This document shows positions 5,625 through 33,558 of a DNA stretch of 37,791 bases, piece by piece; within the stretch, counting starts at the first letter, position 1, and every line of letters begins with the position of its first letter. Position numbers and translations under genes: made by a program. The notes under the pieces are model-generated. The model was not told the origin of the DNA. It searched no databases and worked only from the letters and a program-made list of their open reading frames with translations. The stretch lies in assembly GCA_025361425.1 (NCBI GenBank), contig JANYAH010000171.1:1-37791 (forward strand). The letters run 5' to 3'. This DNA comes from Candidatus Solibacter sp. (GTDB lineage Bacteria > Acidobacteriota > Terriglobia > Bryobacterales > Bryobacteraceae).

Positions 5625-6266
5625 CTAGTCGCGACGGGCTGTCCGGTCCCCTAACTGATCGAGCGCCGTTCGAACTTCCTGTTCAAGGGCTCGAAACGCG
5701 GAGAGCTCGCGCAATGCGCCGTAGTCCCCAATGAGTTCCGCCACGCGACGCACTCGCTGAGTGACAGGGAAGTCGCGGAGCCTGCGTCCGTGCAACTCAG
5801 AGGCATCGCGGAGGGCTTGGTGAAGCAAAGCCTTCGGGAACGCCTCATCTTCGAGACGGTGTATTTGAGGAAGATTCAAGGCAGCCCGGCCTCGAGGCCG
5901 TCCCGCCGCCTCTCTGATTGCGTGTTCGTCGATGAGGAGCCAAGTCTCAGTCATCTTCACCGGCACGACACAGACCGCGGCCACATCGATTTCCGCTGCG
6001 TCGAGTCCGCGGATGATCTCTTCCCTGCGGACGTCATGCCCGACCCGATCGGCATCGCGGTGAACGAACAGCAGGTCGCAGGGATACAGGTCGATGGCCG
6101 TTCGGATCTGGTCGGGAAGCGCTTGCGGCGGCTCTCGAAGGCGCCCGAGATCAGCCCATTGAGACTCGACCGTTTCGGCGCCGCGCTCTCTGAGCACGAA
6201 GGACAGGATCGGAAGCAACGCCTGATCGGACGATCCTTCCGAAAGCAGAGTGTATTGGATATTCAC
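5625..6266 (-). CDS. TOPRIM-domain protein (DUF4276/RloB-like), partner of upstream ATPase
   Basis: The 213-residue protein starts at GTG, placed directly after the TGA of the ATPase gene (no intervening bases), so translation is probably coupled. TOPRIM hallmarks are visible: a Glu in SEGSSD (E10) after the first beta strand, and a DxD motif in LLFVHRDADR (D71, D73), followed by a hydrophobic strand and ETWLLID. DUF4276/RloB/AbiLii-type proteins with this layout pair with SMC-like ATPases in phage-defence modules, where the TOPRIM subunit is the likely nuclease. That family link and activity are inferred. The neighbours (GH97 and comM) are unrelated, which suggests an inserted cassette. Confidence 0.75.
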   Translation of the reverse strand: MNIQYTLLSEGSSDQALLPILSFVLRERGAETVESQWADLGRLREPPQALPDQIRTAIDLYPCDLLFVHRDADRVGHDVRREEIIRGLDAAEIDVAAVCVVPVKMTETWLLIDEHAIREAAGRPRGRAALNLPQIHRLEDEAFPKALLHQALRDASELHGRRLRDFPVTQRVRRVAELIGDYGALRELSAFRALEQEVRTALDQLGDRTARRD

Positions 6267-7727
6267 TCAGGAAGCGGCTCCTAAGCCAGGCAGTATAAGT
6301 TGCCGCAAATCCTTCCGGTCGATCACTCTTCCCCGAGACCGGGAGTCCAACTGGCGAGGTTGAAAAGGGCTCAAGTAGGAGAGTAGCGCGCCACGAGACG
6401 CCACCGGTGCCTGACCCTTCGTGACCCGCCACGTACCGGGGAGCGCCCTCAAAACGAGTGCCTTGTAGCGCTTGGTGTCCCGGCTATATTCCCGGTGCTG
6501 CGCGATCAATAGATCCTCGTCGCGAACCTGCCCAACCACTCCAGGTGAGTGGGTGTTCACGATTACCTGACGCAGCGGGTTTCCGGCTCCAATCGGTTCA
6601 TTGGGATCCACCGCGATGGCATCCAACAACTCCAGCATCGCGGGGATCCGCTCCGGGTGAATTCCGTTTTCCGGTTCCTCCAGACACAACAGGCCCGTGA
6701 ATTCCGGATCCTGCTCCAACACCGACAACGCGAGGAAGCGCAGTGTCCCGTCCGAAAGAGATCTGGCGGGGTGGGGAGTACCGTTTCCGCGGACGTGAAC
6801 CGTGAGCAGTTCGCGTCGCTCGTCGCGATCCACCCAGACTTCTTGCACATCGCCGATCAGGTCGGAGAGACGGTTGGCCACTCGGGCGTACACCGATGGT
6901 GCCGCGTCCTCTTGACCTGGCTCGGCTCTGGCGAGCCTATAGAGTGTTGCCGCCAGGTTCGAGCCGTCAGTGCCAAGGTGCCCCGATGTCGAGAATTCGT
7001 CAGTACGCCGCAGGGACGACGGTTCGAGTTGAAACCGTCGCCACGATTGCATCTCGCGCCTTGCCAACACCGCCGTCGGACTCTCCGCGGAGTTGGCCGT
7101 GGAGAGCACTGACCTGGGCAAATTCTCGGCGGGAACGTTCCTTGGAACTCCGGCATTGCCATCCTGGTGAATTCGAATCACCCGTCTGCCTCCGACTTGG
7201 TCAGTCGAAAGCAAAGGTGCAACCCTCCGCCCACGCAAGACAGAATCGCGCCATGGCTTCTTGGTTTCAAAGAGCAAATGTTGATTCCAATCTCTCAGGC
7301 GGATGTGGTTCAGCTTCTCGTTCAGGATCTCCAGGGGACCTGGAGAAGTGGCTCCGGGAGAGTGGTCGCGATATCCGATCAGGAGGTCGTAGCGCAGAAA
7401 GGTAACTCCGGCCTTGACCGGCTGACGGAGGTCGTCAGTTCCTTCGAAAGGAATGATCATTTCGGCCTGAAAGCTCATCTGCTGGGAGTATTGATCGCCC
7501 ACCCGATGGAACAAGCTGCGCACGTCAGTCGTTTTCCTTCCCTCATCGCGAATAGACATTGCCGCGTCAATAAGAGTATTGTCCGCGAGAGCACTGAGAA
7601 ACCCGATGGAATCGAGAAGATTCGACTTGCCGACGCCGTTAGCGCCCGCAATGCAGGTGAAAGGCCCGAATCGGACGTCGATATCGACAAGATTTTTGAA
7701 ACCGGATACTTTCAGTCTGGTCAACAT
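6267..7727 (-). CDS. SMC/OLD-like AAA ATPase of a putative defence pair
   Basis: This is a 486-residue ABC-type ATPase. The opening LKVSGFKNLVDIDVRFGPFTCIAG leads to Walker A GANGVGKS (28-35). The signature SLSDGTLRFLAL lies at about 323-334, Walker B LLCLEEPENG at about 346-355, and the switch histidine in NTHSP at about 391-395. The insert between the half-sites (about 40-320) is too short for SMC coiled coils, as in RecF/OLD/AAA_21 predicted ATPases. Such ATPases sense or restrain a toxic effector in PARIS, AbiL and Gabija-like systems. Here the effector would be the TOPRIM protein encoded immediately downstream. The ATG has a GAGAAG-type RBS. Function in defence is inferred from architecture only. 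Confidence 0.85.
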   Translation of the reverse strand: MLTRLKVSGFKNLVDIDVRFGPFTCIAGANGVGKSNLLDSIGFLSALADNTLIDAAMSIRDEGRKTTDVRSLFHRVGDQYSQQMSFQAEMIIPFEGTDDLRQPVKAGVTFLRYDLLIGYRDHSPGATSPGPLEILNEKLNHIRLRDWNQHLLFETKKPWRDSVLRGRRVAPLLSTDQVGGRRVIRIHQDGNAGVPRNVPAENLPRSVLSTANSAESPTAVLARREMQSWRRFQLEPSSLRRTDEFSTSGHLGTDGSNLAATLYRLARAEPGQEDAAPSVYARVANRLSDLIGDVQEVWVDRDERRELLTVHVRGNGTPHPARSLSDGTLRFLALSVLEQDPEFTGLLCLEEPENGIHPERIPAMLELLDAIAVDPNEPIGAGNPLRQVIVNTHSPGVVGQVRDEDLLIAQHREYSRDTKRYKALVLRALPGTWRVTKGQAPVASRGALLSYLSPFQPRQLDSRSRGRVIDRKDLRQLILPGLGAAS

Positions 7728-16677: not shown

Positions 16678-16830
16678 TCGGAGTATTTCGCGCGCCTTCC
16701 GCGCGCGTCTAATTGTATATACGGAGCGCGGACGCAAGCAAGATTTAGCGCGCGCGGCAATTTCTTCGCGCCCCGATGCGACGCTCGCAACGCGAAAGAG
16801 ATCCAAACTAACGGTCGATGCATTTTTTTC

Positions 16831-16859
16831 TTGACTTTATTTCCGAAGCACCTTATATA
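16831..16859 (+). promoter_or_regulatory. Sigma-70-type promoter of the lysine-rich micro-ORF
   Basis: A TTGACT -35 element (16831-16836), a 17-base spacer and a TATATA -10 element (16854-16859) predict a start near 16866, about 49 bases before the 20-codon ORF. Confidence 0.65.
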
Positions 16860-16868
16860 TGAATCACA

Positions 16869-16888
16869 TTGCGATTTTTGAATCGCAA
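16869..16888 (+). promoter_or_regulatory. Perfect stem-loop in the 5' leader of the micro-ORF
   Basis: TTGCGATT and AATCGCAA form a perfect 8-bp inverted repeat around TTTG, beginning at or just after the predicted transcription start. It could be a 5' mRNA-stabilising hairpin or an operator. Confidence 0.5.
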
Positions 16889-16914
16889 AATTTGATGTTA
16901 GGGAGAATCAATCG

Positions 16915-16977
16915 ATGAAGACCGCAACCAAGAAAGCCGCCCCGAAGAAAAAGGCTGCTCCGAAGAAAAAGAAGTAG
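16915..16977 (+). CDS. 20-residue lysine-rich micropeptide (histone-tail-like)
   Basis: The ORF has ATG, 20 codons and TAG, and a good Shine-Dalgarno AGGGAG nine bases upstream. The peptide is half lysine and contains two tandem AAPKKK units, like the Lys/Ala/Pro tails of histone H1-like and extended HU proteins. The two 18-base repeat units (16936-16953 and 16954-16971) differ only at two synonymous alanine codons (GCC to GCT), as expected if the peptide is under selection. A promoter, a leader stem-loop and a terminator bracket it as a complete monocistronic unit. A role in nucleoid or RNA binding is an inference from charge. I know of no named family. Confidence 0.65.
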   Translation: MKTATKKAAPKKKAAPKKKK

Positions 16978-17022
16978 TCTGGGCGTCGCCCTGAACAAGG
17001 GCTGCAAACAGGTTATGACTCC

Positions 17023-17047
17023 AAGGCCCCGGTTTCCGGGGCCTTTT
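17023..17047 (+). terminator. Intrinsic terminator of the micro-ORF unit
   Basis: AAGGCCCCGG and CCGGGGCCTT form a 10-bp GC-rich stem with a TTT loop, and the stem end runs directly into a T-tract on the plus strand. It is about 45 bases after the micro-ORF stop. The minus-strand reading has no T-tract, so it serves the plus-strand unit. Confidence 0.85.
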
Positions 17048-17054
17048 TCATTGT

Positions 17055-18059
17055 TTAGGGCTTTTCCCTCCGGTGCTCTCCTCCCTCTCTCCCTTCGGTT
17101 TTCTTCTGCAGCAGAACCCGGAACGTCTCTCCCATTCCGAACAGCAGCGTCTTGAGCTGCATGCGGCGGCGCAACTCCTCCGCCGCGCCGCCCGCGCCCA
17201 GCGCCGCCGCAAACTGGTCCGGTTCTCCGGCGGCCAACAGCGTCTGCGCCAGCGTCTCAAAGCGCACGGTTGTGAAGCCACACGCGGCGCCGCTCTCTTG
17301 GAGCGCGGTGAAGTTCACGTGCGCCGTGATGTCGCGCAACCCGGCGTCGGACAGCACGTCTTCGCGCGCCGTATGCCGCCGATATCCCATCAGCGTGCCC
17401 GCCGGAAAACGCACGCTCTCCGCGCGCGTGAAACCATAATCGACACTCAGCACGTATCCTTTGGTTAACGCCGCCGCCATGCGCTCGAGCCACGCAACCG
17501 CCTCCAGGTTCACTTCGTACCAACGGCCTTCCTCGGGCGGCAGGTAGTAGCGGCGCAGGTAGCGGTCCGCGTTTGCGCCAACCACTTCTCCGGTGTGCCA
17601 GCGGAAGACGCCGTCCGCCATCGCGACCCGTTGCTCATGGAAAGCGCCGTTCTGGTACACCGCGGCATCCACCGGAAGCGCGTCGAAGAACTCGTTGGAG
17701 AAAACAACACCGGTAAAGTTTTCGGGCATCGCGCCCAAATCGATATCCACCGCCACGTAGTTCCATGCGGCGAATGCCTCCGCCATCTCGCCCCGCCCCG
17801 CTCCCACCTCGACCACGGTAAACTCGCGCGGTTCGCCCATCTCGCGGTAGAGTTCGCGAATCCGCGCCGCCATCAGAATGCCGAAGACCGGCTGGATCTG
17901 TTCCGCCGTGAAAAAGTCGCCGCGCTTGCCGAACGGATCCCGCACGCGCCGGTAGTAGCCGTATTCCGGATGATAGAGGGCCACATCCATGAAGCGCCGG
18001 AACGGAATCGGACCGTTGCGCCAGATCTCCGCCGCCAGAAGTTCGCCGGCCGGCGTCAT
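17055..18059 (-). CDS. MidA/NDUFAF7-family class I SAM-dependent methyltransferase
   Basis: About 334 residues from the ATG at 18059. The N-terminus GELLAAEIWRNGPIPFRRFMDVALYHPEYGYY with GKRGDFFTAEQIQPVFG is diagnostic of the MidA (PF02636) family. SAM-binding motif I appears as FTVVEVGAGRGEMA, and the SNEFFDALPVD segment is the conserved NE..DA stretch. The human homologue NDUFAF7 methylates an arginine of a complex I subunit; the bacterial substrate is uncertain. Its start overlaps the stop of a small upstream gene by ATGA, implying coupled expression. The C-terminus ends in a charged low-complexity tail. Confidence 0.88.
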   Translation of the reverse strand: MTPAGELLAAEIWRNGPIPFRRFMDVALYHPEYGYYRRVRDPFGKRGDFFTAEQIQPVFGILMAARIRELYREMGEPREFTVVEVGAGRGEMAEAFAAWNYVAVDIDLGAMPENFTGVVFSNEFFDALPVDAAVYQNGAFHEQRVAMADGVFRWHTGEVVGANADRYLRRYYLPPEEGRWYEVNLEAVAWLERMAAALTKGYVLSVDYGFTRAESVRFPAGTLMGYRRHTAREDVLSDAGLRDITAHVNFTALQESGAACGFTTVRFETLAQTLLAAGEPDQFAAALGAGGAAEELRRRMQLKTLLFGMGETFRVLLQKKTEGREGGEHRREKP

Positions 18060-18331
18060 GCGCGCTGCTCCCGGTTCTGCGGCGTCTCCAGGAACATTTC
18101 CACCAGATAATCGTGCATGCAATCGTAGAGGTACCGCTGGAAGGTCCAGGCAAACTGCGGGTGTTCGATGTCGCGGGCGTGAATGGGCGCGTAGTAGGTG
18201 TGCAGGCCCAGCCGGCGATCCTTCAGTTCGATCACCAGTTCGACCGCGCCATTCTGCTCCCGCGCCGAGAAACTAAGCAGCGCGTGCTTGTAGCGGCGGG
18301 TTTCCACCAGCACTTTTTCCAGAGGGGTCAC
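18056..18331 (-). CDS. Small conserved-looking protein upstream of the MidA-type gene
   Basis: About 91 residues are proposed from the GTG at 18331; the open frame continues upstream but becomes Arg/Ser-rich shadow sequence there. The protein is soluble, with phrases ETRRYKHALLSFSARE, LVIELKDRRLGLHTYYAPIHARDIEHPQ and WTFQRYLYDCMHDYLVEMF. The His- and Tyr-rich middle is notable, but no domain is recognised. It overlaps the methyltransferase start by four bases and starts only 25 bases from the divergent gene at 18357. The RBS is weak. Confidence 0.6.
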   Translation of the reverse strand: MTPLEKVLVETRRYKHALLSFSAREQNGAVELVIELKDRRLGLHTYYAPIHARDIEHPQFAWTFQRYLYDCMHDYLVEMFLETPQNREQRA

Positions 18332-28797: not shown

Positions 28798-30015
28798 TTA
28801 AAGCGCTGAGCTTCTCCCCAGACCTTTGTTTCCGATATCGTGGCGGTAGTGCATCCCCTCGAACTCGATGTGACGGACGCCTTCGTAGGCGGCGGCGATG
28901 GCGGCCGGAAGGTCTGGCCCGGAAGCCGTGACTCCCAGGACGCGGCCTCCCGAAGTCTCCAAACGGCTATGCAGTACGCGGGTCCCGGCGTGGAAGACCG
29001 TGGCGCCTTTTGCTACGGCCATTTGCAGTCCACGGATCTCCTTGCCGGTTTCGTACTCGCCGGGGTAGCCGGCGGAGGCGAGGACCACGCAGACACTCGG
29101 TCCGGCATGCCAGGCGAGCTTGTGCCCGGCGAGTTTACCCTCGCTTGCGGCCAGTAGCGCGGGTACGAAATCCGATTCCATGCGGTGCATCAACGGCTGC
29201 GTCTCCGGGTCGCCCAGCCGGACGTTGAACTCCAGCACCTTTGGGCCGTCGGCCGTGATCATTAGGCCGGCGTAGAGGAAGCCGGTGAAGTTCATGGCTT
29301 CGACGGTCGGGTAGATGACCTGGTCCATCACCATGCGGGTGTGCGCCTCGCTCAGGATGCCGGCATCGCAATAGGCGCCCATGCCTCCGGTGTTGGGACC
29401 TTGGTCGTGATCGAAAACGGCTTTGTGGTCCTGGCTGGCGGCCAGCGGCAGAGCGTCGCGCCCGTCGCAGAGCGCGATGAAGCTGACCTCTTCGCCGGTC
29501 AGAAACTCCTCGATCACCAGTCTGCCCTTCAGAGTGGCCAGGGCGGCTTCCGCCTCCGCGGCATTGTGCGCTACAACCACGCCTTTTCCCGCCGCCAGAC
29601 CGTCGGCCTTCAGGACCACTGGAAAGCCGAAGCGTCCCAGTGCCATGCGCGCGTGGGAGGCGTCCTCAACCGTGGTATAGGCGGGGGTCGGTATTCCCCT
29701 TTGTTGTAAAAAGTCCTTTGCAAAAATCTTGCTGCCTTCCAGGCGGGCCGCCTCGGCGTTCGGCCCGACGATGCGCAAGCCGCGCGCGCGGAATGCGTCC
29801 ACCACGCCAGCCACCAGCGGTACTTCCGGTCCGACCACCGTCAGGTCCGCGGCGATGCGGAGGGCCGCATCCAGCGGCTCTCCCGGGATGCAGGTCGCCA
29901 CCCGCGCCATGCCCGGATTTCCGGGGCACGCAAACACCTCGACGCCTTCCGACTGTGCCAGTTTCCAGCACAGGGCATGCTCTCTTCCGCCGCTACCGAT
30001 AACGAGTATCTTCAT
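28798..30015 (-). CDS. purD: Phosphoribosylamine-glycine ligase (GARS)
   Basis: The 405-residue enzyme of de novo purine synthesis ligates glycine to phosphoribosylamine with ATP. The start at 30015 gives the family beginning [22 protein letters not shown]-grasp features follow: [69 protein letters not shown] and [19 protein letters not shown]. An in-frame upstream extension to 30138 lies inside mnmG and is rejected. Its start codon is only 10-19 bases from the divergent mnmG start, leaving no room for ordinary promoters between the genes. Confidence 0.96.
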
Positions 30016-30021
30016 ACACCT

Positions 30022-30027
30022 TACAAT
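30022..30027 (+). promoter_or_regulatory. Candidate -10 element implying a leaderless mnmG transcript
   Basis: TACAAT lies 7 bases before the mnmG ATG at 30035, so transcription would begin at or next to the start codon. No good -35 hexamer is seen (ATAACG at the expected place), and the call rests on the -10 alone. Confidence 0.35.
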
Positions 30028-30034
30028 GGTAGCA

Positions 30035-31834
30035 ATGCCCGACCGGTACGACGTCGTAGTCATCGGCGCCGGCCACGCCGGCTGTGAAGCCGCGCGCGCC
30101 TGCGCCCGCCTTGGCCTGCGCACGGCCATGGTCACCATGAACCTGGACCTGATCGCTCAGATGAGCTGCAACCCGGCCATCGGCGGCATCGCCAAGGGTC
30201 ATTTGGTGCGCGAGATCGACGCGTTGGGCGGCGTCATGGGTGAAATCGCCGATTCGGTGGGCATCCAGTTCCGCTTGCTGAATACGTCGCGCGGTCCGGC
30301 GGTGTGGTCGCCGCGGGCGCAGATGGACAAGAAGTTGTATCGCTTCCGCATGCGCGAGGTGTTGGAGGCGGAGCCGAATCTGCGCATCAAGCAGGCGGAG
30401 GTGGCCGCACTGAAGATGGGTGAAGACCGTCGCGTGACCGGGGTTTTGCTGCGCGATGGGCGAACGGTAGAGGCGAGCGCGGTGATTGTCACCACCGGGA
30501 CGTTCCTCAACGGGTTGGCGCACGTCGGCGAGATGACGTATAGCTGCGGGCGGAATGGCGAAGCGCCTTCGCAGTTGCTCGGGGACCAACTGCGCACCCT
30601 GGGGTTGAATTGGACGCGGTTGAAGACCGGGACACCGCCGCGGCTCGACGGACGAACTATAGACTGGTCCCAATTTGAACCGCAACCCGGGGATCGGGAG
30701 CCTACACCGTTCTCCTTCATGACTCAGCGGATCGACCGGCCGCAAATTCAGTGCCACGTGGGGTACACCACCGAGGAGACACGGCGTGTGCTGCTGGAAG
30801 CGATCCCGCGCTCTCCTTTATATAGTGGTCAGATTTCGGGGGTTGGCCCACGGTATTGCCCCTCAATTGAGGACAAGATCGTCAAATTCCCAGACAAACC
30901 GCGTCACCAGATATTTCTAGAACCAGAAGGCCTGGATACGAATGAGGTTTACGTCAACGGCATGTCGACCAGTATGCCGATCGATGTGCAGGCGGCGATG
31001 CTGGCTTCGGTACCTGGATTGGAAGGGGCGGAGATGATTCGTCCCGGATACGCTATTGAGTATGATGCGATCGACCCGCGGGAACTGCATCATACGTTGG
31101 AAGTGAAGTCGATTCCGGGGCTGTATCTGGCGGGGCAGATCAACGGCACTTCCGGTTACGAGGAGGCGGGGTGTCAGGGTCTGATGGCGGGGCTCAACGC
31201 CGCCGCGCGGTTGGGAGGCCAGGATGCCGTGGTTGTGGGCCGGATGGAGGGGTATATCGGGATCCTGATTGACGATCTGATCACGAAGGGTGCCGACGAG
31301 CCGTACCGGATGTTCACCTCTCGGGCAGAGTTCCGGTTGCACCTGAGGATCGACAATGCGGATACCCGCCTGACACCGATGGGGAGGAGGGCCGGGTTGG
31401 TGAGTGATGAGCGGTGGGAGGTGTTTACCCGGAAGCAGCGCCAGAAGGAGCTTTTGTCGCAGGCGCTGGAGAAGCACCGCAACGGGCAATGGTTGAAGCG
31501 GACCGAAGCATCGATCACGGAGATTGTGCCGTGGATTGAAGAAGTGCTTGGCGAAGCGCCAGTGCGGGGTCTGTTGGCGACGATTGAAACGGAGATCAAG
31601 TACGGCGGCTACATTCAGCAGCAGGAGCGGCAAATGGAGCGGATGAAGGATGCGGAGCGTCGTCCAATTCCCGCGGACTTTGGGTTCCGGGGCATTCCTG
31701 GGCTTTCTCGCGAAGTGCAGGACAAACTGGAGCAGGTCAGGCCCGCCACACTTGGTCAGGCGGGCCGCATACCTGGTGTGACGCCGGCCGCGGTTGCGGT
31801 TTTGGATTGTTATTTGAGTCTGAGCCGGCAGTAA
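30035..31834 (+). CDS. mnmG: tRNA uridine-5-carboxymethylaminomethyl(34) synthesis enzyme MnmG
   Basis: The 599-residue FAD protein installs the wobble-uridine modification together with MnmE. Motifs: dinucleotide-binding [69 protein letters not shown]-type segment ([11 protein letters not shown]), [11 protein letters not shown], and the C-terminal helical domain ending [19 protein letters not shown] 30035 fits the family start [14 protein letters not shown] 30026 is possible. The usual neighbour rsmG is missing, and parS sites and parA follow directly. Confidence 0.96.
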
Positions 31835-31842
31835 TCGGGGGC

Positions 31843-31858
31843 TGTTTCACGTGAAACA
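31843..31858. promoter_or_regulatory. parS: parS site 1 (ParB binding)
   Basis: TGTTTCACGTGAAACA is an exact match to the 16-bp parS palindrome. It lies just after mnmG and upstream of parA. Confidence 0.95.
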
Positions 31859-31866
31859 GGGTAGAT

Positions 31867-31895
31867 TTGTTTCACGTGAAACAGCGTGTTAGTAT
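31867..31895 (+). promoter_or_regulatory. Candidate parA promoter overlapping parS 2
   Basis: TTGTTT (31867-31872), a 17-base spacer and TAGTAT (31890-31895) fit a weak sigma-70 promoter. The predicted start falls at about 31902, on the TTG start codon of parA, so the message may be leaderless. Confidence 0.4.
31868..31883. promoter_or_regulatory. parS: parS site 2 (ParB binding)
   Basis: A second perfect parS palindrome lies nine bases after the first (centres 25 bp apart). It overlaps the candidate -35 region of parA, so ParB loading here could repress parAB. Confidence 0.95.
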
Positions 31896-31901
31896 GACCG
31901 C

Positions 31902-32693
31902 TTGAGCAGAGTCTTCGCTATTGCCAACCAAAAGGGCGGCGTCGGGAAAACCACGACCGCCATCAATCTCGCCGCCGCCCTGGCAGCCAACGACATGCGC
32001 GTCCTTCTGGTGGATTCCGACCCTCAAGGCAACGCCACCAGCGGCCTAGGTGTCTCCAAAGACCCGGACAAACCCAGCCTCTATCACGTCCTTCTCGGGG
32101 ACACACATCCCAAGGACGCCATACGCTCCACCGAATTCGAAGGTCTCGACATCATCACCGCCGACAAAAACCTGGTCGGATCCAACCTGGAACTCGTCGA
32201 CCTCCCCAATCGTGAGTACCGCCTCCGCGAACGATTGGCCGAAATCCGCGACCTTTACCAGTTCATTCTGATCGATTGCCCCCCTGCCCTGGATCTGCTC
32301 ACCCTCAATGCCCTACTCGCCGCGGATTCCGTTCTCGTCCCCATCCAGTGCGAGTTCTTCGCCCTGGAGGGCGTCTCGGAACTCATGGATACGATCGACC
32401 GTATCCGCGAAGCCTTCCAACACCCCCTTGCCATCGAAGGCATCCTGCTCACCATGTACGACGACCGAACCAACCTCACCCGTCAGGTGGCCGCCGACCT
32501 TCGGGATTTCTTCAAGGATGAAGTCTTCCGCACCGTCATCCCCCGCAGCATCCGTTTGGCTGAAGCACCCAGTTTCGGCAAGCCCATCCTCACTTACGAC
32601 CCCCGATCCAAGGGGGCGGAAAGCTATATCAAACTCGCCAAAGAGATCCTCAACCATGAGCAAACCCGAACATCCGCGTCAAGCGCTCGGTAA
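31902..32693 (+). CDS. parA: Chromosome-partitioning ATPase ParA (Soj)
   Basis: The 263-residue protein has the deviant Walker A NQKGGVGKTTTAINLAAALA, followed by VLLVDSDPQGNATSGLG and Walker B-like LIDCPPALDLLTLNALLAADSVLVPIQCEFFALEGVSEL. No DNA-binding N-terminal extension is present, so it is the chromosomal Soj type. The only usable start in this frame is TTG at 31902, since a stop codon lies 12 bases upstream. ParA forms nucleoid-associated dimers that move ParB-parS complexes. It overlaps parB by 38 bases. Confidence 0.96.
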   Translation: MSRVFAIANQKGGVGKTTTAINLAAALAANDMRVLLVDSDPQGNATSGLGVSKDPDKPSLYHVLLGDTHPKDAIRSTEFEGLDIITADKNLVGSNLELVDLPNREYRLRERLAEIRDLYQFILIDCPPALDLLTLNALLAADSVLVPIQCEFFALEGVSELMDTIDRIREAFQHPLAIEGILLTMYDDRTNLTRQVAADLRDFFKDEVFRTVIPRSIRLAEAPSFGKPILTYDPRSKGAESYIKLAKEILNHEQTRTSASSAR

Positions 32694-33558
32694 AGGAATG
32701 GGCGCGCTTCTGCCCACCCGTTCCCACACCCCACCGCTGGCGCTCGTACCCGCTGCGCCGGCCGAGCCTGGCGAGTCTTCGCTGTCCATCCCGATCGACC
32801 AGATTCAGCCGAATCCACTCCAACCCCGGCGCGTCTTCCAGGACAACCGCTTGGAGGAACTGGCTCAATCGATTCGCGCCAACGGCATTATCCAACCCCT
32901 GGTAGTCCGCTACGTCAACGGCCACTACCAATTGGTGGCGGGCGAACGAAGGTGGCGCGCCGCCAAACTCGCGGACATGACAACGGTTCCCGTGGTTGTC
33001 CGCGAAATTCCCGACAACCGGTTACTAGAGATCACGCTGATCGAGAACATTCAGCGCGAAGATCTCAACCCCATGGAGACCGCCAGCGCCTTCGCCCGCA
33101 TGTCGGCCGAACTCAACCTGAATGCGGAAACCATCGGACTGCGCACCGGCAAAGACCGCACCACGGTCATCAACCTGATGCGTTTGCTTCAACTTCCGCC
33201 TGAGATCCAGCAAGTCATATCCGACGGCAAACTTACCGCCGGTCACGGACGCTGCCTGCTCAGCCTGCCCAACGCCGACCTACAACGCGAAGTCTCCGAG
33301 CGCGCCATCGAAGGCACTTGGTCGGTACGCCAAATCGAACGCACCTGCGCCAGGATGACGGCCGGGAAAACTCCCAAGCACGTCGATGAGGTCAAGGTAG
33401 ATCCCAACGTAAAAGCGGCCATCCTGGAAATGGAGCGAAAACTGGGGACGCGAATCCACGTAAAGGAAGGCGCACGCGGACGCGGCAAAATCGAAATTGA
33501 ATACTATTCCGCCGAAGACTTGGACCGGATCTACGACACAATCATGGGGGAGCCTTAA
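32656..33558 (+). CDS. parB: Chromosome-partitioning protein ParB (Spo0J)
   Basis: The 300-residue protein starts at the ATG at 32656, inside the parA 3' end. The N-terminus GKGMGALLP is the ParA-interacting region. CTP-binding motifs are ANGIIQPLVVR, AGERRWRAAKLA and ENIQREDLNPMETA. A helix-turn-helix (AETIGLRTGKDRTTVINLMRLLQLP) binds parS, and the C-terminal dimerisation segment ends RIYDTIMGEP. It loads at the parS sites just upstream of parA and spreads as a CTP-gated clamp. Two local perfect sites make this a likely nucleation point close to the origin. Confidence 0.96.
   Translation: MSKPEHPRQALGKGMGALLPTRSHTPPLALVPAAPAEPGESSLSIPIDQIQPNPLQPRRVFQDNRLEELAQSIRANGIIQPLVVRYVNGHYQLVAGERRWRAAKLADMTTVPVVVREIPDNRLLEITLIENIQREDLNPMETASAFARMSAELNLNAETIGLRTGKDRTTVINLMRLLQLPPEIQQVISDGKLTAGHGRCLLSLPNADLQREVSERAIEGTWSVRQIERTCARMTAGKTPKHVDEVKVDPNVKAAILEMERKLGTRIHVKEGARGRGKIEIEYYSAEDLDRIYDTIMGEP

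Follow-up and report, generated by a model that had tools for sequence, protein, structure and literature searches.

A tiny lysine-rich peptide gene conserved in Bryobacteraceae and many related soil bacteria

Histone H1-like proteins of the chlamydial Hc2 and Bordetella BpH1 type (PF07382, NF038053, NF038052) are Lys/Ala-rich low-complexity proteins in which the number of repeats changes in frame, with lengths of 165-237 residues for Hc2 and 182-206 residues for BpH1 (PMC2848022). AlgP of Pseudomonas, a protein of 352 residues, carries a disordered tail of KPAA repeats behind a helical N-terminal domain, and this tail has been likened to histone H1 (PMC9239181). Here, we analyzed a window of 37,791 nucleotides (contig JANYAH010000171.1 of Candidatus Solibacter sp., assembly GCA_025361425.1), the host of which belongs to the Bryobacteraceae (Acidobacteriota). 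On its forward strand, a miniature gene encodes a peptide of 20 residues, half of them lysine, which looks like a free-standing tail of a histone-like protein and is so short that ordinary gene finders would miss it (Table 1). Unlike AlgP, the tail stands alone, since the ORF has 20 codons in all.

Table 1. Features of the peptide gene and other ORFs noted in the 37,791-nucleotide window
Feature	Position	Strand	Observation
Conserved CATTTTTTTC just upstream of the -35 box	16821-16830	+	T-run strongly conserved in 35 aligned loci
-35 box TTGACT	16831-16836	+	TTGAC invariant in 35 of 35; next base A or T
-10 box TATATA	16854-16859	+	17-bp spacer; not listed by the consensus promoter scan
5' leader hairpin	16869-16888	+	A few bases after the presumed transcription start; 8 pairs, 92.1% of cells paired, 28 cells with changes on both sides against 8.0 in shuffles
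Ribosome binding site AGGGAG	16900-16905	+	GGGAGAATC.. motif
ORF MKTATKKAAPKKKAAPKKKK	16915-16977	+	20 codons, 10 Lys; ATG start, TAG stop
Intrinsic terminator AAGGCCCCGGTTTCCGGGGCCTT plus T's	17023-17050	+	Stem 17023-17045; terminator found in 180 of 181 related units
Next gene	17055-18122	-	Convergent with the peptide gene
AAA-ATPase-like ORF with a smaller partner ORF overlapping its end	5625-7727	-	Recognized by eye only; might be a defence or repair pair
gidA-like ORF followed by ParA- and ParB-like ORFs	29729-33558		Recognized by eye; about 13 kb from the peptide gene

The initial annotation proposed a complete transcription unit for a peptide selected at the protein level, and every part that it named is present in the sequence. 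The two AAPKKK units of the peptide differ only by GCC/GCT, twice, and both changes are synonymous. A consensus promoter scan did not list the promoter, because its -10 box ends in A instead of T; the promoter claim rests instead on conservation, as the columns of CTTGAC are invariant in 35 of 35 aligned sequences and the spacing to TATA[TAC]A is nearly fixed. The same scan listed both hairpins as terminator-like. A chance ORF was rejected, since this is the only ATG ORF of 10-60 codons with at least 40% Lys in the window and none arose in 200 first-order Markov copies. The presumed transcript folds with z = -2.7, and 2 of 200 shuffles fold as well.

A DNA search of 61 genomes led to 35 complete units, from 34 of 37 genomes of the window's family (f1) and one genome of a second family (f2). 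Five loci (L040, L044-L047) with lysine-rich matches but without the aligned leader were left out of this alignment. A first model of promoter, leader and first seven codons (R1) matched 98 of 299 genomes of the class, including 64 of 67 sampled genomes of f1 and 34 of other families, and all of these 34 carry a tiny lysine-rich ORF directly after the GGAG motif (for locus L220, which was read but not included in the second alignment, see locus L260). A second model (R2), built mostly from those, matched 177 of 299 genomes of the class, with one match per matched genome. Of these 177 matches we read 155. A lysine-rich ORF of 10-97 codons is present in 144 of the 155, including 61 of 64 in f1 (20 to 97 codons) and 83 of 91 in other families (10 to 32 codons). 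It should be noted that both models contain seven codons of the ORF and thus favour copies that keep it. All eight sampled genomes of family f3, in the same order, have no match.

In the phylum sample, 37 of 297 genomes matched, six of them outside the class. Four of these six carry such ORFs (17, 26, 29 and 148 codons), while two (genomes G510 and G564) do not. The longest is a 148-residue K/R/T/A repeat protein in another class of the phylum (genome G373, locus L307, 201-644), which follows a similar promoter. In addition, G015, an f1 genome without a model match, has a 114-codon version behind GGGAGAATC under a different upstream sequence. The unit is also carried by a MAG contig titled Bordetella parapertussis (L111, CALQCC020000009.1), which has the length of contig G032:C9 and whose title looks mislabelled, and by locus L110, titled Acidimicrobiia.

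The relatives bear out purifying selection on the peptide. Among 25 distinct 20-codon ORFs (300 pairs), pS is 0.489 and pN is 0.083, giving a pN/pS of 0.17, although some of these ORFs differ in register, which inflates pN. In 108 units chosen for starting MKxA[T/A]KK, the first and second positions of the M, K, A, K and K codons do not vary while third positions do. Length changes keep the frame and the KKK-stop end in most copies. We further compared 181 distinct units of 10-120 residues (median 22), in which K accounts for 47.5%, A for 35%, P for 7% and T for 5% of residues after Met, with all four Ala codons and both Lys codons in use. These units were picked by a filter for lysine-rich ORFs, so that their composition is partly built in; however, this does not hold for their stops (TAA 91, TAG 90 and TGA 0, although these are GC-rich genomes) or for their terminators (180 of 181, against 36 of 181 shuffled flanks).

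The leader is conserved as well. Its hairpin begins about three bases after the start of the RNA expected from the -10 box, a place where 5' hairpins may stabilise mRNAs. None of 500 shuffles reached the observed number of doubly changed cells, although the measure of pairs with a change on both sides is weaker (43 of 500 reached it). Within the window's genus, promoter, leader, ORF and terminator are kept better than the flanks (for example, in locus L017, 0.80, 0.96, 0.89 and 0.87 against 0.62 and 0.68). In this genus and its nearest relatives the leader is as conserved as the ORF, as an RNA role would also predict.

The neighbouring genes are not conserved, so the unit is not tied to one pathway. 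In f1, a MidA-like methyltransferase gene (PF02636) often lies convergent downstream. A conserved operon with the ECF sigma and RskA-type anti-sigma genes was rejected: this pair lies near the unit in the window, several relatives and one genus of f1 (g45), but is found upstream only in part of the family, and no homologue of the window's neighbours was found in 18 of 18 oriented loci of other families. In twelve loci inspected by eye, without a family search, the nearest genes differ.

No family model reaches its cut-off. The short peptides tested gave no match to the H1-like models, and only the 114-residue form of G015 scored with NF038053 (E 6e-8, 33.1 bits against a cut-off of 80) and PF07382 (12.5 bits against 40), both below cut-off. 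In the NCBIfam, Pfam and PHROGs scans of the short forms, one 57-residue form had a match to phrog_8332, of unknown function, at E 0.009. No solved chain in the PDB matched the 20-mer, the only form searched. No Rfam family matched either (best 22.1 bits against a cut-off of 40, sX6; none at E <= 0.5 among 14 loci). No description of this gene was found in a search confined to open-licence literature and judged largely by titles and the start of abstracts.

Taken together, comparison shows a real, stand-alone gene with its own promoter, 5' hairpin, ribosome binding site and terminator, orthologous units of which are spread through the class, usually one per genome, with peptides mostly of 10-30 residues that grow or shrink in frame. 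With moderate confidence, and from sequence signals rather than expression, binding or structure data, we infer that the unit gives much short, stable mRNA and so an abundant, disordered and strongly basic peptide, which coats or condenses a polyanion (DNA, RNA or polyphosphate) as the C-terminal tail of histone H1 or the repeat tails of Hc2 and AlgP do, but without a folded domain. In this view, charge density and not exact sequence is what counts, which would explain the loose length and order of K, A and P together with the strict avoidance of other residues. However, lysine-rich composition does not tell DNA from RNA, ribosome or polyphosphate. By length and model scores the peptide is not a member of the Hc2/BpH1 families, and in our judgement it works like them. 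A membrane toxin was rejected, since the window peptide consists of M, K, T, A and P only.

The strongest alternative, though a doubtful one, is a dual-function or mainly regulatory RNA acting through its leader, GGGAG region or 3' part, with the peptide as a second product or by-product. Such RNAs, of the SgrS kind, appear to combine a short conserved transcript with a tiny ORF, but no target or base-pairing region was identified here. The loss of the ORF with terminator and leader kept, which the initial annotation had named as evidence against a peptide gene, does occur, but in a minority: 3 family genomes and 8 others of the 155 copies read, so that the peptide is dispensable in some lineages. 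In genus g99 of family f11 (loci L321, L322, L326-L329, L336-L351), 18 of 19 genomes match R2 and none of the 18 copies has a lysine-rich ORF, yet promoter, CAGGGAGA(A/G)TAG, an internal GCGGU-GGCAAAG-(G/A)CCGC hairpin, GGCAAAGC-type motifs and a terminator stay aligned in 17 sequences (L337, cut by its contig end, was left out). Nine of the 18 matches have E between 0.01 and 0.72 and count only through the alignment. No Rfam match was obtained for the four loci of this genus tested (L321, L322 and L326 among them). A pattern search for a relocated peptide hit 6 of 19 genomes, in five N-termini of 509-residue proteins and one 85-residue protein, so relocation was rejected, although the pattern is narrow and this evidence is weak. 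Genomes G134 and G188 have similar ORF-less copies. In g45, 13 of 19 genomes match, 10 with the ORF and three (G126, G224 and G312) with the ORF body gone between leader and terminator; these three score 54-60 bits against 74-113 for those with an ORF, as expected of decay. The RNA can thus outlive the peptide, either as a functional RNA or as a slowly decaying remnant, and g99 looks more like function than g45. Against this reading, 144 of the 155 copies keep the ORF under protein-level constraint, so that a peptide gene holds for the window and most relatives, while an additional role of the RNA is possible.

A small basic peptide associated with ribosomes or RNA, working like the tiny ribosomal proteins and not as a nucleoid factor, is less likely still. 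Its size, charge and inferred high expression fit, but lengths from 10 to over 100 residues and the loose order of K, A and P do not suit a fixed binding pocket. A leader peptide or attenuator, suggested by the short ORF, hairpin and terminator in a row, can be all but dismissed, because the next gene in the window is convergent, neighbours differ between families and a terminator follows the ORF in nearly every unit.

A bolder and only tentative possibility is a class-wide bacterial micro-protamine, with peptides of as few as 10 residues (MKKAKKKKKR) made from a dedicated, strongly conserved mini-gene, whose RNA body also works by itself and survives as a non-coding RNA in one genus. Protamines are likewise very small, free-standing polycations, but they are typically arginine-rich and come from animal sperm, whereas Arg makes up 0.3% of residues here. 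If the peptide reading is true, a large soil-bacterial class carries a polycationic micropeptide that sits below usual annotation limits. It would reduce the H1-like tail to its smallest natural form, give a clean test of what charge density alone does to a bacterial nucleoid, RNA pool or polyphosphate, and offer a natural series from coding to non-coding copies of one transcription unit.
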